Below the pieces are notes generated by a model, which was not told where the DNA came from, made no database searches, and saw only the letters and a program-made list of their open reading frames with translations. Made by a program: the position numbers and the translations under genes. 51,987 bases of DNA from Chloroflexota bacterium (lineage in GTDB: Bacteria; Chloroflexota; Anaerolineae; UBA4142), in contig JACRBM010000068.1 in assembly GCA_016219275.1 (NCBI GenBank), forward strand, positions 1 to 51,987. The letters run 5' to 3'. Positions 2,010 to 51,987 of the stretch are shown one piece after another (within the stretch, counting starts at the first letter, position 1; each line of letters begins with the position of its first letter).

Positions 2010-2315
2010 AGATGATCCGCGCCAATAAATTTTTTCAGCTGCGAAGCGCGCGAATCCTCGCAAATTTTTATTTTGCTTCGTAAAGATTCGCGTAATTCGC
2101 GGATAAAATATTCTGTCTTTTATGCAAGAGACGCGATGCTGGGAAGATACACTATTTGCGTGACAACGCGCAGTGTGATACATTAAGCATCCTGATTTTT
2201 CTGATCAAGTAGAAGATTGGTTGTGACCCATCGGAGAAACGCGCAAGCAACGGCGCGCACCAGCCCGACCGCATCGGGCTGGATTTTATTCGCCAGACGA
2301 CGACGTGATGAGAAT
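2010..2315. other. Intergenic region with degenerate palindromic repeat
   Basis: 306 bp without a credible gene. It holds a stretch rich in ATTCGCG/CGCGAAT motifs at about 2041-2105 (GCGAAGCGCGCGAATCCTCG, then ATTCGCGTAATTCGCGGAT), resembling a worn intergenic palindrome. A weak promoter candidate, TTGCGT (2156-2161), 17 nt, TACATT (2179-2184), could serve the MFS gene. Confidence 0.4.
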
Positions 2316-3569
2316 ATGAATTTTCAGAATTGGTCGTGGACCCCCGAAGGGCTAACGCCTACGCAACGCGAAAATTTCAAGCGCGTGATCATTGACGGCG
2401 CGGGCATCGGCTTTGCCAGCGCCGCGGGACCGTACTTGCCGGTCTTTCTCGCGCGACTGGATGCGACGAACTTGCAAGTCGGCTTGCTCACCGCGATGCC
2501 TTCGATTACCGGCTTGTTCATCGCCATTTTGATCGGACGCTTTTTGCAAACGCGTCGCCAAGTCGTGCCCTGGTTCAGTCGCGCGCGCCTCATGGTGATC
2601 TCGGCGTACGCGATGACCGGCATCCTCCCGTTTTTTCTGCCGAACGACCAACTCGTCACCGCGACGCTCGTCATCTGGGCGCTCGTCACATTGCCGCAGA
2701 TCGTCGTCAACGTTGCGTTCTCCGTCGTGATGAATGCCGTCGCCGGACCCAAGGGACGCTACGAACTGATGAGCCGGCGTTGGTCTACGATTGGCATCAC
2801 CACGGCAGTGACGATTGCCGTCGCCGGGCAAATCCTGGATCGCATTCAATTCCCGTACAACTACCAACTCGTGTTTGTCGGTTTGTCGCTCGGCGGCTTG
2901 GTCAGCTATTATTTTTCGAGTCGGATCGAATTGCCCGATCAAGAACCGCCGCCGCGCATCGCCGGGCAATCGGCGCGCGAACGCCTCGCCGGATTTGTTT
3001 CGCTCATCCGCAGTCAACCCGCGTTCGGATCGTTCATGCTCAAGCGATTTGTGTTCTTCTCCGGCACTGCGCTCGCCGCGCCGATCTTTCCACTCTATTT
3101 TGTGCGCGAGGTGCAAGCCAGTGACGCGTGGATCGGCATCATCAGCACGGTCAATGCTGGGGTGATGCTGATCGGTTATTGGTGGTGGACGCGCCAATCG
3201 AAAATGCGCGGCGGACGCTATGTATTGTTGTGGACGACGCTCGGGTTGACGCTCTATCCCACGCTCACCGCGTTCACGCGCGATGTGCATCTCATCGTGG
3301 TTTTCGCCGGCATCTCCGGCATTTTTCAAGCCGGTCTCGACCTGGTGTTCTTCGACGAATTGCTCAAGACCTTTCCCGCCAAGTACAGCGCGACGTTCGT
3401 CTCCATCGCGCAAAGTTTACAACACATGTCCACGATTGCCGCGCCGCTCGTCGGAACCTTGCTCGCCGACCAGATCGGTCTGGGTGGCGCGCTGCTCGTG
3501 AGCGCGGCGTTGCGTTTATTTGGCTTTGCGTTGTTCGCGCTCGGCGGACGCGCACCGGTCAAAACGTGA
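2316..3569 (+). CDS. Major facilitator superfamily (MFS) transporter
   Basis: 417 aa with about 12 alternating hydrophobic segments in two halves separated by a hydrophilic loop near residues 205-230 (SSRIELPDQEPPP). The first helices read GAGIGFASAAGPYLPVFLAR, followed by LQVGLLTAMPSITGLFIAIL, the usual MFS arrangement of TM1 and TM2; a basic loop (GRFLQTRRQ) follows TM2 where MFS motif A normally lies. The cargo cannot be told. Start ATG 2316 lies just after GTGATGAGA, a weak ribosome-binding site; extending to 2217 would add a basic, low-complexity tail unlike MFS proteins. It probably acts alone; degV follows 63 bp later with its own strong ribosome-binding site. Confidence 0.85.
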   Translation: MNFQNWSWTPEGLTPTQRENFKRVIIDGAGIGFASAAGPYLPVFLARLDATNLQVGLLTAMPSITGLFIAILIGRFLQTRRQVVPWFSRARLMVISAYAMTGILPFFLPNDQLVTATLVIWALVTLPQIVVNVAFSVVMNAVAGPKGRYELMSRRWSTIGITTAVTIAVAGQILDRIQFPYNYQLVFVGLSLGGLVSYYFSSRIELPDQEPPPRIAGQSARERLAGFVSLIRSQPAFGSFMLKRFVFFSGTALAAPIFPLYFVREVQASDAWIGIISTVNAGVMLIGYWWWTRQSKMRGGRYVLLWTTLGLTLYPTLTAFTRDVHLIVVFAGISGIFQAGLDLVFFDELLKTFPAKYSATFVSIAQSLQHMSTIAAPLVGTLLADQIGLGGALLVSAALRLFGFALFALGGRAPVKT

Positions 3570-3632
3570 TATTGCATCTTGCCTGGCTTGATGCTAAACT
3601 ATGCCTGGTCCGTTCTTGCCGGAGGTTTGGAC

Positions 3633-4499
3633 ATGGACACCGTTGCCATCGTGACGGATAGCGCCGCGAGTATTCCGGAACCACTCATCCACGACCTGGG
3701 TATTCACTGGGTGCCGTACTATATCCATCGCGGCAAAGAAGTACTGCGCGACCTTGTCACCGCACAAGGCGATTCGTTTTATCAATGGCTACCCACCGCG
3801 CTGGAACTTCCCAAAACCGCGAGTCCAGGTCCGGGCGATTATTTCGAAATGTACCAATCGCTCGCCGATCAAGGCGCGCGAGAGATCGTCAGCATTCACA
3901 TGACTTCGAAAGGGAGCGGCGCGTATCAAGCCGCCCTGGTCGCGCGAACGATGATCGCCGAAGCCGCGCCGAAATTACGCGTCGAGGTAATTGACACGTT
4001 GAACGTTTCGATGTGTCAGGGATGGATGGTCATCCAAGCCGCGCGTGCCGCGCTGGCTGGCAAATCGTTGCCTGAGATTGTCGCCATTGTACGCGCGCTG
4101 ATCCCGATCACGCAAATGATTCAAACTGCCGACACGCTCAAATATCTTTACATGGGCGGACGGATTGGCAAAGCCAAGCATCTCGTCGGCACCTTGCTCA
4201 ACATCAAGCCATTGATCGGCATGGAAAACGGAGTGATCGTCGCGCTCGGCTCGGCGCGTAGCCGCGCCAAAGCGTACGAAGCGATGGTGGATTTGATCGA
4301 GCAAGCCGTCGGCAAAAACGCGCAAATCAAAATCGCGTACATGCACGCGGCGGCAGAGGAAGAGGCGCTTAAAATCAAGCACTTGGTCGAGGATCGTTTT
4401 ACGTGCGTCGAGTCGCTCGTGACGCAACTCTCGCCCGCGTTGGGAGTGCACACCGGACCAGGCACCGCCGGCGTGTGTTATTATCCGGTTTACACGTAG
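3633..4499 (+). CDS. DegV family fatty-acid-binding protein
   Basis: 288 aa, the usual DegV length. It opens with VAIVTDSAASIPEPLIHDLG, the family N-terminus, followed by VPYYIHRGKE. It also carries PKTASPGPGDY (the lipid-headgroup Ser/Thr region), MGGRIGKAKHLVGTLLNIKP and the C-terminal GPGTAGVCYY. DegV/FakB proteins bind a fatty acid and hand it to a FakA kinase for acyl phosphate formation; no fakA lies in the window. Start ATG 3633 follows GGAGG (3621-3625) with good spacing. A perfect hairpin lies at the stop codon. Confidence 0.92.
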   Translation: MDTVAIVTDSAASIPEPLIHDLGIHWVPYYIHRGKEVLRDLVTAQGDSFYQWLPTALELPKTASPGPGDYFEMYQSLADQGAREIVSIHMTSKGSGAYQAALVARTMIAEAAPKLRVEVIDTLNVSMCQGWMVIQAARAALAGKSLPEIVAIVRALIPITQMIQTADTLKYLYMGGRIGKAKHLVGTLLNIKPLIGMENGVIVALGSARSRAKAYEAMVDLIEQAVGKNAQIKIAYMHAAAEEEALKIKHLVEDRFTCVESLVTQLSPALGVHTGPGTAGVCYYPVYT

Positions 4500-4524
4500 A
4501 GACGCCCCGGCGGGGCGTCTCTAC
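4496..4524. terminator. Perfect 13-bp hairpin between convergent genes
   Basis: GTAGAGACGCCCC (4496-4508), loop GGC, GGGGCGTCTCTAC (4512-4524). It begins in the last codon of degV and separates it from the convergent gene ending at 4529, so it could stop transcription from both sides. U-tracts are poor. Similar GTAGAGACG... palindromes are dispersed repeats in many bacteria, so it may also be a repeat copy. Confidence 0.55.
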
Positions 4525-4528
4525 AGAA

Positions 4529-5041
4529 TTACCGCGCGCCCCACAGATTGCGCGCGAGCAAGATCACGCCGAGTGCAACCAGCAAGAGGGGCCAGTACGG
4601 TCCGAAGAAATTCATTCCGCCGAGGAACGCACCAAAGATCGCGAACATCACGAGACTGATAAAGACGAGCCACGCGCCAGCGCGAAAATTACGCATCGGC
4701 TCTTTGCCCAGCAAACCCATCAGCAGCGCGCCGACACCAGCAAACCCAGGAATCAGCGTCCACGCGTACGCCCAGCTCGCCCACTGATTCGTCGCATTCT
4801 GCCAGTAGAGCAATCCGCCGATACCGCTAAAAATCGCGGCGGGCATCGCAAATTCCGGTTTACGATTGACGACCGCGAGCAAAAGCCACAGCACGTCAAA
4901 CGCGACGATGATGAGGGGCTAACTATAGCGCGCGTTGAACCACTCGTTCAACCCTGGCACGAATTGAACCGCGAGAAACCACACACCAAGTAAAATCATA
5001 ATCAATCCACCTACGACGCTCGATCTGTTTCGTTGATCCAT
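4529..5041 (-). pseudogene. Small membrane protein gene interrupted by an in-frame amber codon
   Basis: The frame opens at ATG 5041 behind GGAGGAAAA and encodes one TM helix (GGLIMILLGVWFLAVQF), then reaches TAG at 4919-4921. It continues without a frame change (PLIIVAFDVLWLLLAVV), through several more TM helices, to a stop at 4529. The whole would be about 170 aa of the bacterial type with stacked TM hairpins around a W-P-L-I-L-I motif (LiaF/DUF5668-like), where a Trp usually precedes PLI. A single TGG-to-TAG change would explain the break. Either the gene is dead, the base is a sequencing error, or the parts are made separately (60-aa leader and a 121-aa downstream piece starting at 4894). 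Confidence 0.7.
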
Positions 5042-5137
5042 TTTTCCTCCACGCGCGATTTGTTTTCGATTATAAGTCAGAATTCCGTTTTCACCAAGCA
5101 TTATTTCACACCCACGACTAGCGCCAGGTCGTTTTAT

Positions 5138-5222
5138 TTGTCATTTCGAGCGCAGCGAGAAATCCCTCACCTCGGACAAGGGCGAGATTTCTCGTCGCGA
5201 AAAGCGCTCCTCGAAATGACAA
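5138..5222. repeat. Long dispersed-type inverted repeat upstream of fmt
   Basis: Arms TTGTCATTTCGAG (5139-5150) and CTCGAAATGACAA (5210-5222) enclose a second complementary pair, GCGAGAAATC and GAGATTTCTCG. The whole can fold into a long imperfect hairpin. This TGTCATTTCGAG...GAAATGACA design is a widespread intergenic repeat type in bacteria. It ends 13 bp before the fmt start codon. Confidence 0.6.
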
Positions 5223-44192: not shown

Positions 44193-45245
44193 TCACGCAA
44201 ACTGTTTCGGCACGCGCGCGGCAAATAGCACCGCACGGCGTAAACCGCGCGTATCGCCAAAGCGCGCGTGATTGACCCAGCCCAACACTGAAGCCGTAAG
44301 GCAATCGAGAGAAATGCGTCCAACAGCATACTCGCGCATCCGCTCGCACAAGCGGCGTTGGAACGCGATGCCGTTACGCCGCTTCAGCCGGCGATGCGTT
44401 GGGTAAATCGTAAATCCAAGAAACGGCATCCCCGTCGTAACCGGGCGCGCCTGCGCGGTATTTTCGTGCAAGGTCACGCGTAATTGCGCCAGGCGTTTGA
44501 TGATCGCGTTCTTCCAATTCCACAAATTTGTTTTCTCGTCCGCAAAGAGCAAAAAATCGTCCACGTAACGAACATATCCCTCGCATTTCAGTTCCCGTTT
44601 TACAAAATGATCGAAAGGATTGAGATAGCAGTTCGCCCAAAACTGGGACGTCAGATTGCCGATGGGCAACCCGCGCGCGCGATTCACCGCGAACAAATCA
44701 TCGCCGAGAAACCAGGTCATCGCGTACTCGTCGGACAAGACGCCGACGCCGCTGGCGAGAATCTGGTCAATCAGCCACAATACTTGCGCGTCGTTAATTT
44801 TCCGCGCGAGCGTCGCGCGCAGAATCGCGTGGTCAATCGAGGGAAAGAACTGACGCAGATCGCACTGCAAAACGTACCGATACCGCCGCGCGAATTCCTG
44901 CGCGCGATCCAACGCGCGATGCGTTCCCTTCTTCTTGCGATTCGCGTACGAATCGAAGATGAACGACCGCTCGAAAACCGGTTCGATGAGCTGGCAGAGC
45001 GCGTGATGGACGACGCGGTCGCGGAACGGCGCGGCAGAGATCAACCGTCGTTTGGGTTCGTGGATGTAAAAACTGGTGTACGCGCCGGGCTGGTACGTTT
45101 GGTCGCGCAGTTCGCGTTGCAACGCGAGCAAGTTGTCTTCGAGCCGGTACTCGAACGCGGCGGCGGGCGGCTGACCGCGCTTGCCTTTGGCGGCGCGACG
45201 GTACGCGAACAAAAGGTTATCCCAGGAACACAATTCGGTGTACAT
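44193..45245 (-). CDS. DGR reverse transcriptase
   Basis: 350 aa, single RT domain without maturase or endonuclease parts. Motifs: IHEPKRRLISAAPFRDRVVH (RT0/1), YVLQCDLRQFFPSID with catalytic Asp129, GLPIGNLTSQFWANCYLNPF, and YVRYVDDFLLF (Asp229, Asp230). The I-G-x-x-x-S-Q form (195-201) replaces the Q-G-x-x-x-S-P of group II intron and most other RTs and is the DGR signature linked to adenine infidelity. It should copy TR RNA into mutated cDNA that replaces VR. ATG 45245 (MYTELCSWDNLLFAYRRA) matches the usual DGR-RT start. It lies 35 nt after avd, with a GC-rich inverted repeat between them. Confidence 0.97.
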   Translation of the reverse strand: MYTELCSWDNLLFAYRRAAKGKRGQPPAAAFEYRLEDNLLALQRELRDQTYQPGAYTSFYIHEPKRRLISAAPFRDRVVHHALCQLIEPVFERSFIFDSYANRKKKGTHRALDRAQEFARRYRYVLQCDLRQFFPSIDHAILRATLARKINDAQVLWLIDQILASGVGVLSDEYAMTWFLGDDLFAVNRARGLPIGNLTSQFWANCYLNPFDHFVKRELKCEGYVRYVDDFLLFADEKTNLWNWKNAIIKRLAQLRVTLHENTAQARPVTTGMPFLGFTIYPTHRRLKRRNGIAFQRRLCERMREYAVGRISLDCLTASVLGWVNHARFGDTRGLRRAVLFAARVPKQFA

Positions 45246-45280: not shown

Positions 45281-45628
45281 CTACGCACTCACCTTGCGCC
45301 AGCCGCCGAGCAAGCGTCCGATCTCGGCAACCATTTCGGCGGCGTGTTGATATTGTCCGGCGGTCAGCCATTCCCAACGCGCGGCGTGCCGCAGATACAA
45401 CCGCACCTTGTCGAGCGATTCGTCCGCGCGATCCAACCGTTCCAACCGCGCTTTGCCGTGCCGATAGTTCGCCTCGTTCAAGCGTTCACTCAAATCGAAC
45501 GCGGCGTCGAGCAAGCGTTGCGTGAACGTGAAACGATGTGCGCGCGGAAAATGATTCGTCATCGGCAACAGCCACGTGATAAAATCGAACGTGCGCGTAA
45601 AGATCGGCATTTCGGCGCGTGAGTTCAT
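45281..45628 (-). CDS. avd: DGR accessory variability determinant (Avd), four-helix bundle
   Basis: 115 aa, helical and very basic. MPIFTRTFDFITWLLPMTNH, FPRAHRFTFTQRLLDAAFDL, LNEANYRHGKARLERLDRAD and LDKVRLYLRHAARWEWLTAG match the bacterial Avd/S23-like four-helix bundle. Avd forms a barrel-shaped pentamer that binds RT and the TR RNA and is essential for mutagenic retrohoming in known systems. ATG 45628 follows TTGGAGAACCCCA; ATG 45610 is an alternative. It lies between TR and RT. Confidence 0.92.
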   Translation of the reverse strand: MNSRAEMPIFTRTFDFITWLLPMTNHFPRAHRFTFTQRLLDAAFDLSERLNEANYRHGKARLERLDRADESLDKVRLYLRHAARWEWLTAGQYQHAAEMVAEIGRLLGGWRKVSA

Positions 45629-45788
45629 TGGGGTTCTCCAAAAATTTGTAGGGGCGGGGTCATCAGCCCACAGACTGGGCGGGGTCATTCAGCCACAGAC
45701 TGGGCGGGGCAAACCCGCCCCTACGTTGCCCACGCCAAGGCGTTTGCCCAGGGCGCGGACACGTTGATATTCGTCCGGCGTGGATAGA

Positions 45789-45968: not shown

Positions 45969-45984
45969 TTGATCGGAGAGCCAT

Positions 45985-46107
45985 GACGACCCGCCACAAC
46001 GCGAAAACCGATGTTGTCATTCCTGTTGTTGGGATGGTTCCTGTTGCGACACGCCGCGCGGACGTTGTTCTGATTGTTGTTCCACGAGCCGCCGCGCAAC
46101 ACGCGGG
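45985..46107 (-). repeat. DGR template repeat (TR)
   Basis: 123 bp. Read on the minus strand in the VR frame it gives [20 protein letters not shown] followed by [17 protein letters not shown]: an Asn-rich run because AAC/AAT codons are the ideal substrate for adenine mutagenesis. The 3' end (45985-46011) is identical to VR and would hold the IMH-like sequence. An 84-codon open frame (45905-46159) covers TR but is not a gene. Confidence 0.96.
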
Positions 46108-46266
46108 TTTCGTTTCCGGTCAGCCCTGCACCCAGATGGATGCGGAGCGAATGTAGCACAAGACACGCCGCGTGGCAAATTAGAGCAAACTGTTTTCACG
46201 CGCACAATATTTTCGGGAACATTGTCCGTTACTTTCGATCTTGTCCGTTGTAATTCCCTCCGCGCG

Positions 46267-46291
46267 CTGGGGGAAACTTAGTTTCCCCCAG
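46267..46291. promoter_or_regulatory. Hairpin downstream of VR
   Basis: CTGGGGGAAA (46267-46276), loop CTTAG, TTTCCCCCAG (46282-46291). On the minus strand it lies 53 nt after the 3' end of VR. Known DGRs often have a hairpin or cruciform shortly downstream of VR that helps target recognition; it could equally be a transcription terminator for the target gene. Confidence 0.5.
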
Positions 46292-46302: not shown

Positions 46303-46344
46303 TCAGAGTCCCAGAGTTTCAGAGGGATCAGAGTTCAGAGTCAG
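46303..46344. repeat. Imperfect CAGAGTT-type tandem repeat at the target gene's 3' end
   Basis: TTCAGAG, TCCCAGAG, TTTCAGAG, GGATCAGAG, TTCAGAG: 7-9-bp units that directly follow VR and supply the last codons (Asp-Ser-Glu-Leu) and the stop of the target gene. Confidence 0.7.
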
Positions 46345-49300
46345 GACGACCCGCCACAACGCGAAAACCGAAGCCGTCACTCCAGTCGTCGGGATGGGCC
46401 CAGAGGCGACACGCCGCGCGGACGAAGTGCTGATTGAGGTCCCACGAGCCGCCGCGCAACACGCGGGGAACATCACCTTCAAGCGATTCGCGACCCTTCG
46501 CTTGTTTCAAGTAATCCTTGTAATTTCCGAACCACTTGGTCTGACACCATTCCCAAACATTGCCCGCCATATCCGTGCATCCGTACGGCGACACACCTTG
46601 CGGAAAGATTCCAACCGCACTCGTCGCACCAATTTTTGTCTCGGCATAATTCGCGTGTTGCGGAGTTAGTTCACCATTCCACGGATAGATACGTGCGTCT
46701 GTTCCCCGCGCGGCTTTTTCCCATTCGGCTTCGGTAGGCAAACGAATCGCGAGTTGCGAGTTGCGAATCGCGGATTGCAAAATCGAATCCCGGATACCAT
46801 TATTCTGAATTCTGAATTCCGAATTCCGAATTCTTTCCGTCAGCCACCGGCAAAAAGCAACGGCTTCGTACCACGACACACCTACAACCGGATGATTGTC
46901 CAAGTTGAACGGGGATGGATAATCAACTTGACGCTCACGCGGTTCGTTATCCCAGCGTCCCTTGAACTTGCCATCGTTCCACCAGCCCGCGGCGATTGCC
47001 TCTTGCCAAAATCGCGCGTCGCAATACCCACCCACGTTTACAAACGCGTTGAACTGGGCGTTTGTCACCGGATATTTACCGATGAGGTACGCGCGCGTGA
47101 TACTCTTTTCTTCGTGTTGCGGAGTTTCGTCATCGCTTGCCATCTTGTCGCGCTTTTTATCGCTCCCCATCGTGAAGGGTCCCGCCGGGATTTCGCACCA
47201 CACAATATCAGGAACCGCCATCCCCAGCCCTTCTCCCGCGCGCAGGGGAAGGGTGGAAACACCGGGACGCGGGTCGCCCAACTTGGCGAGCGCAACGCCG
47301 GCTTCGGCGCGTTCGAGCGGCGCGAGCAAGCCATGCTCGAGCAACGCACCCAAGCGCGGGATGAGCCGTTGGAGGAACACGTCGCCGCCTTCGCGCGTGT
47401 CAGTGTCCGCGCGAATTGCGTCCTTGCCCATTTCTGCCGCGATGTTGCCCGCCCACACGATGCCGCGCCAATCATTGTCATCGCGCGGCTCTGGCGTCGG
47501 ACACAGTTCGTACAGCGCGTCGAGCACCTTGTACTTGTCGCCGCCCGGACTGTACAACAAATGCTCTGCGCCCAGTTGCGCCGCGAGCGCCCATTTATCA
47601 CCCTCGCCCAAGCGATTGCGGAGTTGCCGTCCAAAACCACGTTCGCCCAGTGCGAGGTAACATCCCGCGAGAAATTCTTGAAACGTCCGATGGGCGAACG
47701 TGTACACCGGCTCGGCTTGATCTACTCCGCCGCGCCCCACCAACAATCCGGCGCGTTCGTCCACGTGCCCCAAAAAACGTTCCGCATTCGCGTAACTGCC
47801 GTTCATTTTTTTGGCGAGAATCTTGACGACATCGTTTTTCGGCAAATCCACCGCTTCATTTTTCTTGCCGCGCGTGTGCGCTTCAAACGCGACGCCCCAT
47901 AACGCTTCGAGCAACGCGGCTTCGGAAAGACCCAGTTCGGTCAGCACCGGCGATTCGCCTTGCTTGTGCTTGTGCCAACGCCGCAAAAGAATTTCGACGC
48001 ACCGTTGATACAACACGGCGCGTTCGCGCGGCAATTCCACCTGCGCGGTGTGCACGACCGCCATCGTCGTGAGCAACAGCGGCGTCTGCGCGAGTTCGGT
48101 CAAACGCGCGACGGCGATTTCCAAATCGTCGGCGCGTCGGTCGGCGCGGTCGCGCGGCATCTGCCCCAAATCGGCGAGCGCGCCGTACCACGCGCGCACA
48201 AACGTTTTGATTTTGTCGTCGTCGAACGGCGCAATTGTCACGTCTGTAAACGCGGCAAGCCGCGCGTCGTTTTGATACGAACGGATGCGGCACGTCACCA
48301 GAAAGCGATTGTCGCGATAGTGCGCCGCAAACGCTTCGACCGCTTGACGCGCAAGCCAGCGACGTTCTGGCGCAACCTCATCCAAACCGTCAAAGATAAC
48401 GAGTCCTTCGCCGGCGTCGAGCGCATCCAGCACCAGTGACGCGGCGGCGGCGGCTTCAAATATCTTGTCCACCATTTGGCTGATGTGCGCGCGCACCGCG
48501 TTACAAAACGCACGTTCGCGTTGCTCGGTCGCGAGCGGTTGTAATTCTTTTTCGTCCGGCAGACTCGCCGCCAATTCGCGCAAGAGCACGCGCACTGGCA
48601 ACCGCGCGCCGTGCGTCCATTGCGCCGGCAATTTCGCGCGATCCGACCGCGCGGCAATCAACGCCGCCGCTAAATGGTTGACGAACGACGACTTGCCCGA
48701 ACCTGGGTCGCCGGTGATGACCAAGCGCGCATTTTTATCCGCCGCTTCAAGCACGGAAACCGCGCGCGCGTCATCGCGCCCGGGAAATGCCGCTCGGTCT
48801 TGGCGTTGTTTCTTTTCCTCGTCGGTCAACGGCACGCGCGTCGTCGTGTCGAGCGCGATGTACACGCGGTCGAGTGTAACATCCGCGCGGCGATGCACAT
48901 CGGCATCATCGGCAATGGCAGCGAGTGGGAGTGCGTTGCAGGCGCGTTGCAGATTTTTGAGATAGCGCGTCAAGGCGGCTTGGCGATCTGCGTCGCTCGG
49001 CGCGCGTGGCGCGGGCGGCACTGGCGCGGTCGAAGCGGGAACCGGCGCGGCGCGTTGCGACTTGATTAGCGCATCAATCCACATTCCCAGATGTTGGCGC
49101 ACCAATCGTTCAAAATCCTCCGGCGTGTTAAAGGTGAACACCAAGCCGGGATGCACGCCACTGGGCAAAAACCCGTCAAAGAATTTGTTGACGCGCCCTA
49201 CTTGTTCAATATTGAATTGCGAGCTAGTAATATCTACCGGGCGCGCGCAACGGTAAAACATCACTTTGGGAAAACCATCCCCGCGCGTTGCGCGTTGTCG

Positions 49301-49645
49301 GTACGCCGCTTGAAACTCCTCCTCCGTGCCGGAGAGGTACGGCTCGTTCGTGCGCGGATCATTCGTGTCGGTGGGTTGCCCAAAACGTTGCCACAGAATG
49401 CCGACAAAAATATCCCACTCGTCCGGCGAAAGTTGATCGAAAACCACTTGTTGTGGTCGCCCCACATCCGGCGCAACGTATGTCTCCCAGCGCCAAAGTT
49501 TGAGACGGACACCGGCAATTTGCGCCGCGCCGCCTTTGGCGTTCATCTCGTTCACCGCGCGCGCCACGCGTTCGCGTTCCTCTTTTACATCGCCGGGCGA
49601 AGCCAGGAACACACGCAATTCAGTTTCGGTAATCGTCTTTGGCAT
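46328..49645 (-). CDS. DGR target: DUF4062-NACHT-FGE/C-type-lectin protein
   Basis: 1105 aa. DUF4062 at about 8-120 (LRVFLASPGDVKEERE, DIFVGILWQRFG). A Pro/Ala linker leads to a NACHT-type ATPase: Walker A GDPGSGKSS (312-320), Walker B GLVIFDGLDE (414-423), then helical regions with YTFAHRTFQEFLAGCYLALG. From about 814 an FGE-sulfatase/CLec domain follows: CEIPAGPFTMGSD, YLIGKYPVTNAQFNAFV, LPTEAEWEKAARG and DMAGNVWEWCQ, ending in RVLRGGSW...[10 protein letters not shown], the VR. The two catalytic Cys of formylglycine-generating enzyme are absent (Leu and Val there), so it is a binding fold, not FGE. A heptamer repeat adds about 29 residues before LPTEAEW. It is probably a STAND-type sensor whose tip is diversified. 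ATG 49645 follows GAGGTGGGT. Confidence 0.93.
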   Translation of the reverse strand: MPKTITETELRVFLASPGDVKEERERVARAVNEMNAKGGAAQIAGVRLKLWRWETYVAPDVGRPQQVVFDQLSPDEWDIFVGILWQRFGQPTDTNDPRTNEPYLSGTEEEFQAAYRQRATRGDGFPKVMFYRCARPVDITSSQFNIEQVGRVNKFFDGFLPSGVHPGLVFTFNTPEDFERLVRQHLGMWIDALIKSQRAAPVPASTAPVPPAPRAPSDADRQAALTRYLKNLQRACNALPLAAIADDADVHRRADVTLDRVYIALDTTTRVPLTDEEKKQRQDRAAFPGRDDARAVSVLEAADKNARLVITGDPGSGKSSFVNHLAAALIAARSDRAKLPAQWTHGARLPVRVLLRELAASLPDEKELQPLATEQRERAFCNAVRAHISQMVDKIFEAAAAASLVLDALDAGEGLVIFDGLDEVAPERRWLARQAVEAFAAHYRDNRFLVTCRIRSYQNDARLAAFTDVTIAPFDDDKIKTFVRAWYGALADLGQMPRDRADRRADDLEIAVARLTELAQTPLLLTTMAVVHTAQVELPRERAVLYQRCVEILLRRWHKHKQGESPVLTELGLSEAALLEALWGVAFEAHTRGKKNEAVDLPKNDVVKILAKKMNGSYANAERFLGHVDERAGLLVGRGGVDQAEPVYTFAHRTFQEFLAGCYLALGERGFGRQLRNRLGEGDKWALAAQLGAEHLLYSPGGDKYKVLDALYELCPTPEPRDDNDWRGIVWAGNIAAEMGKDAIRADTDTREGGDVFLQRLIPRLGALLEHGLLAPLERAEAGVALAKLGDPRPGVSTLPLRAGEGLGMAVPDIVWCEIPAGPFTMGSDKKRDKMASDDETPQHEEKSITRAYLIGKYPVTNAQFNAFVNVGGYCDARFWQEAIAAGWWNDGKFKGRWDNEPRERQVDYPSPFNLDNHPVVGVSWYEAVAFCRWLTERIRNSEFRIQNNGIRDSILQSAIRNSQLAIRLPTEAEWEKAARGTDARIYPWNGELTPQHANYAETKIGATSAVGIFPQGVSPYGCTDMAGNVWEWCQTKWFGNYKDYLKQAKGRESLEGDVPRVLRGGSWDLNQHFVRAACRLWAHPDDWSDGFGFRVVAGRPDSEL
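46345..46467 (-). repeat. DGR variable repeat (VR)
   Basis: 123 bp coding for the last part of the CLec fold. Compared with TR, 18 bases differ, changing 13 residues. TR Asn/Arg/Ile codons have become Asp, Leu, His, Phe, Leu, Trp, Ala, Asp, Asp, Trp, Ser, Gly and Phe, so the binding surface has already been diversified. The final 26 bases match TR exactly. Confidence 0.96.
46748..46838. repeat. Heptamer repeat block inside the FGE domain of the DGR target
   Basis: Mixed 7-mers: GCGAGTT, GCGAGTT, GCGAATC, GCGGATT, then TCTGAAT, TCTGAAT, TCCGAAT, TCCGAAT. It codes for IRNSEFRIQNN...SAIRNSQLAI between CRWLTE and LPTEAEW, which are only a few residues apart in ordinary FGE-like proteins. Confidence 0.85.
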
Positions 49646-49746: not shown

Positions 49747-51393
49747 TTACACCACCATCGAATTCGCGCTCACCGCCGCGTTCGCTTCCGCGTCAATCCG
49801 AACGTTCACACACGCGGGCTTGCCGGACGCAAGCGCGCGTTCGAGCGCGGGGCGAATCTCGCGCGGTTCCTCGACGTACTCGCCGTGCCCGCCGAGCGCA
49901 CGCACGACCTCGTCGTACCGCGACAGCGCGAGAGCGGACGCGACCGCACGATCCGCGCCGTAGAAATTCAACTGCGGTCCGCGAATCTGTCCCCACGCCG
50001 CGTCGTTGCCCACCACCGACACCATCGGCAAGTTGAATCGCACCGCAGTGTCAAACTCGAATCCGTTCAACCCGAACGCGCCGTCGCCGTTGATGATGAC
50101 GACGGACGATTTTGGATGCACGAGTTTCGCGGCAATCGCAAACGGCACGCCGACGCCGAGACAACCAAAGCGTCCTGGGTCGAGCCAGTGTCCGGGTTTC
50201 GCCACGTTGATGACTTTGGATGCTTGCGACACGATGTTGCCACCGTCGCCAATCACAATCGAATCATCGTCGAGCACATCGCGAATTTCTTTCGCGAGAC
50301 GCATCGGATGAATCGGCATCACATCCGAGTTCATCAGCGCCTCAAGTTTCGCTCCCAGAGTTCTCTCAAGTTCCCTCAGTGCCTTTAACCAGGGTAAAGA
50401 GGGAACAAAGGGAACTGAGGGAAATGCGTCTGCCAAATCTTGCAGTACTAATCGCACATCGCCGACAATGCCCACATCCACCCCGCGATTGCGACCCAGT
50501 TCGCGCGGCTCGGCGCTGACGTTGACAATTTTCGCCGCGTCATTGAACGTGGGTGACTTGCCGTACCCCAGTCGAAAATCGAGCGGCGCGCCGACGACGA
50601 GAATCACGTCCGCGTTTGCGAGCGCGTGTTTGCGCGACGCGGTGAACAGGTACGGATGATTCGGCGGCAACGCGCCGCGTCCCATCGCATTGAGATAGAC
50701 CGGCACGTTCGCGCGTTCCGCGAACCGCGCGAGCGCGTCGCTTGCATCGCTCCACCAGATTTCGGAACCGGCGATCAGCGCGGGACGTTCCGCGCGTTCG
50801 AGCAACGCGGCGGCGCGCGCAATCGCGTTCGCATCGCCGCGCGGCGCGGTCGTCGCGCGATAATTCGTCGGGATTTCGATTTCGGCATCTTCCGCCACGC
50901 CGAGCAAAACGTCAATCGGAATTTCGAGAAACGCCGGACCAAATCGCCCGGCGAACATCTGCCGAAACGCGATGGACAAGAATTCCGGAATGCGCCGCGT
51001 GTGCAAAACGGCGCGCGACCATTTCGTAATCGGCGCGAGGAGTGAAACGGAATCCAGTTCTTGCAGTGAACCCATTTCGAATTGATCGCTCGGCGCTTGC
51101 CCGCCGATGACGAGCACCGGCGAATCGGCTTGATACGCGTTCGCGATGCCGGTCACCGCGTCGGTCACACCCACGCCTGCCGTCACAATCGCGATCCCAG
51201 GTTTGCGTGTGAGCCGCGCGTACGCGTCCGCCGCGTGCGCCGCGGCTTGCTCGTGGCGAAAATCCACGATGCGGATGTCCTCGTCGAGCAAGCCGTTGTA
51301 AATCGGCATGATGTGTCCGCCGCACAACGTGAACACCGTATCCACGTTTTCTTGCTTCAACATGCGCGCGACCAGATGACCACCATCGAGCAT
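49747..51393 (-). CDS. Thiamine-pyrophosphate enzyme, acetolactate synthase / 2-hydroxyacyl-CoA lyase type
   Basis: 548 aa with three domains. The PYR domain has the catalytic Glu48 in DFRHEQAAAHAADAYARL, followed by IVTAGVGVTDAVTGIANAYQ. The central domain includes AGSEIWWSDASDALARFAER. The PP domain has the TPP motif GDGAFGLNGFEFDTAVRF and, after it, GNDAAWG. GGQAPSDQFEMGSLQELDSV resembles 2-hydroxyacyl-CoA lyase/oxalyl-CoA decarboxylase relatives more than biosynthetic IlvB, and no ilvN lies nearby, so the substrate is open. A Pro-rich stretch near residue 350 (FPSVPFVPSLPW) is coded by an inverted repeat (about 50362-50425). ATG 51393 follows AAAGGAGGTCGCG. Confidence 0.9.
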   Translation of the reverse strand: MLDGGHLVARMLKQENVDTVFTLCGGHIMPIYNGLLDEDIRIVDFRHEQAAAHAADAYARLTRKPGIAIVTAGVGVTDAVTGIANAYQADSPVLVIGGQAPSDQFEMGSLQELDSVSLLAPITKWSRAVLHTRRIPEFLSIAFRQMFAGRFGPAFLEIPIDVLLGVAEDAEIEIPTNYRATTAPRGDANAIARAAALLERAERPALIAGSEIWWSDASDALARFAERANVPVYLNAMGRGALPPNHPYLFTASRKHALANADVILVVGAPLDFRLGYGKSPTFNDAAKIVNVSAEPRELGRNRGVDVGIVGDVRLVLQDLADAFPSVPFVPSLPWLKALRELERTLGAKLEALMNSDVMPIHPMRLAKEIRDVLDDDSIVIGDGGNIVSQASKVINVAKPGHWLDPGRFGCLGVGVPFAIAAKLVHPKSSVVIINGDGAFGLNGFEFDTAVRFNLPMVSVVGNDAAWGQIRGPQLNFYGADRAVASALALSRYDEVVRALGGHGEYVEEPREIRPALERALASGKPACVNVRIDAEANAAVSANSMVV

Positions 51394-51416
51394 CGCGACC
51401 TCCTTTGGAATGTTGC

Positions 51417-51913
51417 CGCAAGTTGGAAACTTGCGCCACGTGTAGGACAAGTTTCTAACTTGTCCATCTCGCAAGTTGGAAACTTGCGCCACGTGTGGAA
51501 CAAATTCCTAACTTGTCCATCTCGCAAATCGGAAACTTGCGCCACGTGTGGGACAAGTTTCTAACGTGTCCATCTCGCAAGTTGGAAACTTGCGCCACTT
51601 GTAGGACAAGTTTCTAACTTGTCCATCTCGCAAGTTGGAAACTTGCGCCACGTGTGGGACAAGTTTCTAACTTGTCCATCTCGCAAGTTGGAAACTTGCG
51701 CCACGTGTGGGACAAGTTTCTAACGTGTCCATCTCGCAAGTTGGAAACTTACGCCACGTGTGGGACAAGTTTCTAACTGGTCCATCTCGCAAGTTGGAAA
51801 CTGGCGCCACGGGTCGGTCAAGTTTCTAACTTGTCCCTCTCGCAAGTTGGAAACTTGGGCCACGTGTCGGACAAGTTTCTAACTTGTCCATCTCGCAAGT
51901 TGGAAACTTGCGC
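51417..51913. repeat. 53-bp tandem repeat array of double hairpins
   Basis: Nine complete 53-bp units (51417-51893) plus a 20-bp partial. Each unit has GCAAGTT-GGA-AACTTGC and GACAAGTT-TCT-AACTTGTC joined by GCCACGTGTGG and CATCTC, so every copy can form two small hairpins on either strand. Units carry scattered point changes, most toward the right end. It lies 24 bp upstream of the TPP-enzyme start codon. No unique spacers exist, so it is not CRISPR. Confidence 0.95.
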
Positions 51914-51930
51914 TACACTTTGATTTCAAA

Positions 51931-51962
51931 AGAAAAATGCCGCCACATATCGTAGCGGCATT
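51931..51962 (-). terminator. Rho-independent terminator of a gene beyond the right edge
   Basis: AATGCCGC (51936-51943) pairs with GCGGCATT (51955-51962), 11-nt loop. Read on the minus strand it ends GCGGCATTTTTCTTTT, a proper U-tract, so an upstream minus-strand gene outside the window probably stops here. Confidence 0.65.
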
Positions 51963-51987
51963 GTCGTTCTCGCCGTTTATTTGTTCA

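Follow-up and report, generated by a model that had tools for sequence, protein, structure and literature searches.

What a bacterial retroelement rewrites, and to what end, is the question raised by the 51,987-nucleotide contig JACRBM010000068.1 of a Chloroflexota bacterium (GCA_016219275.1), the whole of which is called the window here. The window carries a diversity-generating retroelement (DGR), and the gene that this element diversifies encodes a single protein composed of a DUF4062 head, an NLR-like NACHT switch and a C-type lectin (CLec) sensor of the type found in the formylglycine-generating enzyme (FGE). Both the anatomy of this receptor and its assignment to a DGR are regarded as virtually certain. 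The parts of the locus are as follows (RT, reverse transcriptase; ORF, open reading frame); G, C and L numbers below denote genomes, contigs and loci.

46328..49645, minus strand: DGR target gene, 1105-aa DUF4062 / NACHT-HD1-WHD-HD2 / FGE-type C-lectin receptor (ORF with ATG start; Pfam; full-length model)
49049..49624, minus strand: DUF4062 head, residues 8-199, five beta-alpha units, TIR-like in the model (pLDDT 95.2; top VIA rows TIR and DNPH1)
49316..49318, minus strand: E110, candidate catalytic glutamate in an SGTEEEF motif, third main helix (invariant in 42/42 DUF4062 sequences)
47273..48997, minus strand: NLR-like switch, residues 217-791 (NLRC4 8fw2, Z 20.1, 424 residues aligned; motifs)
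Within the switch, minus strand: Walker A GDPGSGKS at residues 312-319, Walker B FDGLDE at 418-423, WHD-like HRTFQEF at 652
46331..47209, minus strand: FGE-type C-type lectin sensor domain, residues 813-1105 (PF03781, E 3.7e-55; TvpA 2y3c, Z 24.5)
46337..46471, minus strand: variable repeat (VR), codons 1059-1103 (22/32 template adenines and 1/103 other bases changed)
46267..46291, minus strand: post-VR hairpin, 11-bp stem and 3-nt loop, a probable homing-target cruciform
45977..46111, minus strand: template repeat (TR)
45281..45688, minus strand: Avd accessory protein (PF22296, 1.9e-18; NF033474 above cut-off)
44193..45245, minus strand: DGR RT, 350 aa, YVDD (PF00078; 8ub7, E 4e-51)

The retroelement and its target

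The target is followed on the minus strand by the TR, the avd gene and the RT gene, and the locus therefore reaches to the RT stop at 44193, beyond the target gene that the original prediction had singled out. That prediction described the target as a large DUF4062-NACHT-CLec protein rather than a phage receptor-binding protein, and the ORF, the Pfam domains and the structural models bear it out. Pfam recognised DUF4062 (PF13271) over residues 12-115 at 27.0 bits (cut-off 24.7), NACHT (PF05729) over residues 309-488 at 32.0 bits (cut-off 26.7) and FGE-sulfatase over residues 819-1098 at 187.8 bits (cut-off 23.3), and the full-length model, built from 34 sequences, had a pLDDT of 88.4 and a pTM of 0.76. 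A phage receptor-binding protein was rejected, as residues 1-500 had no match in the phage collection and IMG/VR yielded only three weak loci at the level of the NACHT domain; plasmid matches, among the 10 of 39 records listed, spanned less than half of the query. No signal-peptide-like or transmembrane-like stretch was found in the receptor (maximum 19-residue Kyte-Doolittle mean 1.46, and 0.21 in residues 1-60), and a cytosolic location is therefore expected.

The VR differs from the TR almost exclusively at template adenines. Over 131 nt without gaps there were 20 mismatches, 19 of them at the 29 adenines of the template (hypergeometric P = 1e-14), and over 135 nt 22 of the 32 adenines differed as against one of the 103 other bases. 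The proportion of adenines changed approximates the 75% expected under full adenine randomisation, and the 19 adenine changes were close to unbiased (A>G 7, A>T 7, A>C 5). None of the adenine-containing codons of the TR can mutate to a stop, and ~1.6e18 protein variants are possible. The RT matches the structure of the BPP-1 DGR RT (8ub7), and Avd lies above the NCBIfam cut-off for 'diversity-generating retroelement protein Avd' (100.6 against 80 bits).

Hairpins behind the VR were sought in 25 stretches by ungapped pairing. All seven VRs of this genome have a stem of 9-11 bp starting about 50-70 nt downstream, and stems of at least 8 bp were found in 10 of 18 stretches from relatives, one of which, behind the G137 orphan receptor, is terminator-like and unlike the others. 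The scan detected no such stem at G118 C100, where the contig end truncates the stretch, nor at the G227 orphan, G137 C23, L146, L147 VR1, L160 or either G096 VR. The hairpins are thus common but not universal, since the scan demanded ungapped pairing and several relatives scored none. In BPP-1 a post-VR hairpin is needed for efficient homing, and hairpins of that type have 4-nt GRNA loops and lie 4-34 bp from the VR (PMC3240598, in the part consulted), whereas the hairpin of the window has a 3-nt TAA loop, not GRNA, and lies about 50 nt away.

The window holds one of four DGR RTs in the genome (C68), the others being on C96, C67 and C45 and each 61-63% identical to the C68 RT. The four TRs serve seven VRs, that of the window target and six from the three further DGRs, with mismatches falling at TR adenines in 22/22 cases for C68, 16/17 and 19/21 for C45, 17/19, 20/20 and 18/19 for C96, and 17/18 for C67. 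The C67 target is a classical TIR-CLec protein, and the other five targets outside the window are NACHT-CLec proteins with no head recognised by Pfam. The four DGRs with their seven targets would appear to constitute a small receptor repertoire. A fifth RT match in the genome, at 30% identity, looks CRISPR-associated. Locus L038 of the same genome (G000:C80:1-9000) is a probable RT-associated type III CRISPR locus; at 2293-5211 it has an RT-like ORF beside ORFs that we take to resemble Cas1 and a type III RAMP protein. The genome also encodes STAND proteins that have no DGR (L035, L036 and L037, on C33, C56 and C43), with the architectures DUF4062-NB-ARC-TPR, DUF4062-NACHT-HEAT and NNH1-NACHT-LRR; since the first two exist without a DGR, the DUF4062-STAND unit has been combined with several sensors.

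The switch, the sensor and the DUF4062 head

Residues 217-791 of the full-length model were superimposed on NLRC4 (8fw2) with a Z of 20.1 and a root-mean-square deviation (rmsd) of 5.3 over the 424 residues aligned. An ATP-driven switch had been predicted, and its Walker A and Walker B motifs have not been lost in the relatives compared; together with E110 they are invariant across the five orthologue sequences of alignment A2. Model residues 794-1100 match TvpA (2y3c), a DGR-diversified protein of lectin fold, at Z 24.5 and an rmsd of 2.9 over 229 residues.

An alignment to human FGE places variable residues 1069, 1070, 1073 and 1074 on the loop of the catalytic cysteines. The cysteines themselves are not kept: in 2afy (C341S chain) Cys336 aligns with L1070, and position 341 lies opposite a gap that follows F1074, both L1070 and F1074 being diversified positions. 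The variable residues thus line the former active-site cleft of FGE, which suggests that the sensor copy is a binder and not an FGE. The VR, foreseen as a variable sensor tip, is accordingly predicted not to be buried, as it maps, by fold and alignment (the TvpA match above), to the ligand or active-site face of the FGE/CLec fold. The CLec domain also contains a low-complexity insertion (NSEFRIQNNG-like) at about 46740-46850 of the window, residues about 935-965, and orthologues have an insertion of different sequence at the same site.

The N-terminal domain was correctly named as DUF4062, but the extent of residues 1-130 given for it did not stand, as the model assigns about residues 8-199 to the head. 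An AlphaFold model of residues 1-200, built from 42 sequences, comprised five beta-alpha units. In a second look with VIA the head matched the TIR domain of SPARTA (8spo, Z 11.3, 138 residues, rmsd 3.3), AbTir (Z 11.0), RUN1 (Z 10.6) and RPP1 (Z 10.2); the fold call is made at the level of the superfamily, since a plain Foldseek search did not place TIR domains first. At the sequence level, DUF4062 had no match in the PDB at E values up to 10. The candidate defence model PDC-S60 of PADLOC matches the head (1.3e-26).

E110 is invariant in all 42 DUF4062 sequences, as are F13, A15, S16, P17, D19, E23, G89, G106 and T107, and it lies early in the third main helix of the head. DUF4062 proteins are described as TIR-like NADases that depend on a conserved glutamate and act by abortive infection, with KpSwz E97 and TEP1 E1008 catalytic within the family (in the portion of PMC13174449 available). 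By its position in the third helix, without a direct alignment, E110 is a candidate counterpart of KpSwz E97. The putative effector of the original prediction is therefore strengthened, as the head folds like a TIR domain in the model and DUF4062 is a demonstrated NADase elsewhere (PMC13174449, same portion). Alternatively, the head might have no enzymatic activity and, in the manner of effector-associated domains, recruit a separate effector by acting in oligomerisation or as an adaptor. TIR domains can serve as scaffolds, and the Pfam support for DUF4062 given above is modest. This explanation is nonetheless improbable, given the invariance of E110, the catalytic role of its proposed counterparts in the same family, and that the genes beside the cassette included no recognisable partner carrying a matching adaptor.

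Homing, head exchange and cassette loss in relatives

A search of 396 genomes of the class with the head gave matches in 30 genomes at 36 places, 35 of which were examined with their surrounding DNA (G142 was left out). An FGE/CLec domain occurs in the same ORF as DUF4062 at 11 of the 35 places. Five genes share the DUF4062-NACHT-CLec architecture of the window (the window, G118, G137, G227 and G039), and a sixth, in G207, is cut by a contig end; four genes in three genomes are DUF4062-nSTAND1-CLec (two in G201, one each in G096 and G365), G338 has a DUF4062-protein kinase-CLec fusion (L226 1020-3503) and G242 a DUF4062-CLec gene (L228 1092-2456). The named relatives are Chloroflexota, mostly Anaerolineae. 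Very long DUF4062-bearing ORFs (about 3950-4370 aa) were seen in order-level relatives (L225, L233, L237), and neighbouring ORFs in a Thermoplasmata archaeon (L181) match both DUF4062 subfamily models.

A DGR was seen at four of the 11 DUF4062-CLec genes, contiguously in the window and G096, and with target and cassette on separate contig ends in G118 and G039. Among the five genomes searched outside the family of the window, DGR RTs were found in G096 only (G338 and G242 had none). The G118 VR differs from its own TR at 13 positions over 125 nt, all of them TR adenines (P 8e-10), and the partial G039 VR (45 nt) at six, again all adenines. The window and G118 TRs, by comparison, differ at 24 positions, three of them adenines. 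Each VR follows its own diverged TR, since the VR-TR differences are confined to adenines, and this is what continued homing predicts. At the level of sequence comparison, the TR, Avd, RT, hairpin and adenine-confined VR divergence show that mutagenic retrohoming has rewritten the receptor tip, and the agreement of the relatives' VRs with their own diverged TRs shows that it has done so more than once. A trans-acting DGR for G118 and G039 was rejected, as target and cassette lie at contig ends and VR equals TR at all aligned non-adenine bases. The G118 RT adjoins a PIG-L gene whose 80%-identical relative follows the target in G227, which fits a single order of target, TR, Avd, RT and PIG-L.

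Constraint along the receptor was estimated as dN/dS by the method of Nei and Gojobori against four orthologues, with dS partly saturated. Ratios were 0.25-0.40 for the head, 0.25-0.36 for NACHT, 0.28-0.48 for HD/WHD, 0.15-0.21 for the CLec scaffold and 0.71-1.10 for the VR. By this estimate the head, the switch and the CLec scaffold are under purifying selection and the VR is not.

Among 80 named loci, seven ORFs were DUF4062-NACHT-CLec (L142, L143, L145, L146, L156, L216 and L218), the first three apparently corresponding to G137, G118 and G039. No RT was found in reach of the three from other phyla (L156, Methylococcaceae; L216, Bryobacterales; L218, Desulfobacterales). L146 (JACIWX010000005.1, 'Chloroflexi bacterium isolate MAG-37') has a contiguous TR and VR (16/16 mismatches at adenines), RT and Avd. 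Its head belongs to another DUF4062 subfamily (Pfam 2.9e-22) and is 28% identical to that of the window, while the chassis is 55-68% identical; judged by these identities, the DUF4062 head has been exchanged for that of another subfamily on a conserved chassis. One TR in G096 faces both a TIR-NACHT-CLec target (VR1, 15/15 mismatches at adenines) and a DUF4062-nSTAND1-CLec target (VR2), the DUF4062 of which was found with the A3 profile (1.1e-41) and was not reported by Pfam at 0.01. As NACHT-CLec and a DGR RT occur in one locus in 15 of 83 loci, the chassis is common, and DUF4062 is one head among several.

In G227 the receptor has been kept, and 0.6 kb (L072 6938-7545) replaces TR, Avd and RT between the target and PIG-L. 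Just after the stop the sequence is 90% identical to the window over 30 nt, the hairpin stretch is absent, and a second flanking match is weak (E 0.09). The G227 receptor looks like a natural frozen allele left after loss of the mutator. A TR acting in trans on the orphan G227 and G137 receptors was not found among the matches to the window TR. Of the other TRs in those two genomes, the one on G227 C228 can be aligned with the VR across just 23 nt, and the one on G137 C23 differs at 37 of 98 bases, 21 of them adenines; both were rejected as templates.

In a tree of 29 RT rows (L131 and L138 gave no RT row and were left out) the window RT falls inside a 13-row clade with support of 99/96. The tree does not prove the inheritance of one DUF4062 locus, as the DUF4062-associated RTs do not form one clade.

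Proposed function and known systems

The function that we consider probable, by analogy with homologues of the head and switch, is that of a cytosolic, single-chain, hypermutating NLR-like receptor in which sensing would lead to NAD+ hydrolysis and abortive infection. RT and Avd would copy the TR RNA with random bases at adenines, and the cDNA would replace the VR, giving up to the ~1.6e18 stop-free variants. The CLec tip would bind an intracellular ligand, most plausibly a phage protein, and binding would free the NACHT switch for nucleotide exchange and oligomerisation as in NLRC4 or Avs. The crowded DUF4062 heads might then turn into active TIR-like NADases that hydrolyse NAD+ via E110, and the infected cell would stop or die, protecting its kin. 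An auto-reactive variant would be eliminated together with the cell that carries it.

Several observations weigh against this proposal. The nucleoside hydrolase DNPH1 matches the head at Z 11.0 in VIA, equal to the TIR matches, and the leading rows of the plain Foldseek search were TRAPPC11, an IRG GTPase and flavodoxins, the highest-placed TIR coming 17th. The gene neighbourhood is not a defence island: a thiamine pyrophosphate (TPP) enzyme is encoded upstream, and a gene with no Pfam family and radical-SAM genes lie on the other side. The RTs of G207, G039 C182 and G118 group with that of L146 (98/95) to the exclusion of the window RT. The second VR of G096 has only 15 of 23 mismatches at adenines and eight of 23 elsewhere, and the G096 RT is interrupted between two halves (L243 7376-8520), with diversified targets on either side. 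Two of the five complete or near-complete orthologues of the same family, G137 and G227, have no RT or TR at hand.

The findings on head fold and neighbourhood would suit another use of the same molecule, in kin or self/non-self recognition or the tuning of an internal signalling pathway rather than phage defence, in which DUF4062 would hydrolyse nucleotides in signalling or be an NADase that does not kill. There are no defence genes nearby, the head matches DNPH1-like nucleoside hydrolases no worse than it matches TIR domains, and cyanobacterial DGRs have been proposed to tune regulatory pathways (PMC7517822, in part). We consider this use unlikely, because the closest characterised DUF4062 (PMC13174449) and STAND/Avs (PMC10907252) proteins are antiphage in the portions of those papers available, TIR and DUF4062 heads interchange on DGR targets (C67, G096), and PDC-S60 matches the head. 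The loss of TR, Avd, RT and hairpin in G227 with the receptor kept, the G137 orthologue without a cassette and the split RT of G096 would agree with a decaying relic in which mutagenic homing has stopped and the receptor is fixed. For the window this is very improbable: its RT motif (YVDD), Avd and hairpin are intact, its TR is free of stop-generating codons, and its VR equals the TR at 102 of 103 non-adenine bases.

The proposed receptor resembles several known systems. For DGR-diversified STAND-CLec proteins, some of which bear a TIR or peptidase head, a role in antigen sensing has been put forward and is described as experimentally untested (Dore et al. 2024, PMC10907252), and DGRs were linked to conflict systems by Kaur et al. 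(PMC7159879), both papers being cited from the parts available. As here, DGR 3 and 6 of Thiohalocapsa PB-PSB1 (RT clade 5D) place the VR in an FGE-type CLec domain at the C-terminus of a STAND NTPase, and the sensors of Dore et al. are mostly cytoplasmic with several DGRs per genome; many of their heads, however, are uncharacterised or need a separate effector, whereas the window receptor unites effector, switch and variable sensor in a single polypeptide, with head exchange and loss of the cassette seen among its relatives. The main text of PMC10907252 makes no mention of DUF4062.

Swarozyc and TEP1 (Osinski et al. 2026 preprint, PMC13174449) share the DUF4062 fold with its conserved glutamate, and in human TEP1, an NADase, as in NWD1, NWD2 and NPHP3, DUF4062 stands beside NACHT as it does in the window receptor. 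Swarozyc differs in sensing the phage portal via a fixed auxiliary domain and, in the available text of the preprint, no STAND domain is described for it; WD40 takes the place of a lectin sensor in TEP1 and the NWD proteins. The word 'retroelement' does not occur in the preprint text available. Avs, bacterial NACHT antiphage proteins and NLRC4 have the same effector-NACHT-sensor plan and NBD-HD1-WHD-HD2 fold, but Avs and NLR sensors are fixed repeats (TPR, LRR; PMC10907252, in part), and here a lectin-fold sensor is rewritten by an RT. Adenine mutagenesis, Avd, RT, a post-VR hairpin and the CLec fold are shared with the DGRs of BPP-1 (Mtd) and of Treponema denticola (TvpA). The Mtd and TvpA targets are phage-tail or surface proteins, unlike the window receptor.

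The union of DUF4062 with a DGR was not found in the main texts of the literature searched. DGR-STAND sensors and DUF4062 NADases are each known; their union appears to be new. We suggest tentatively that the locus could represent a bacterial NLR with programmed, continuing diversification, in which a predicted death enzyme, an ATP switch and a rewritable antigen sensor share one polypeptide, one of at least seven DGR-rewritten CLec proteins per cell; auto-reactive variants would be purged by suicide, useful ones would spread with the lineage, and some relatives would have frozen their receptor by discarding the cassette. If so, prokaryotes would possess a heritable counterpart of an adaptive immune repertoire, built on a head family that also occurs in human TEP1 and NWD1. 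As one chain carries both the proposed effector chemistry and the hypermutated tip, the effect of the VR on the trigger could be read by a simple NAD+ or cell-death assay, and the idea of a bacterial "adaptive" immune receptor becomes directly testable. Natural controls are at hand in head-swapped relatives, the classical TIR twin and receptors that lost the DGR. A further question is how a cell could tolerate having the sensor of its suicide switch altered at random.

Away from the DGR, 53-bp units form a tandem array at 51364-51969 of the window, immediately upstream of the TPP-enzyme gene.

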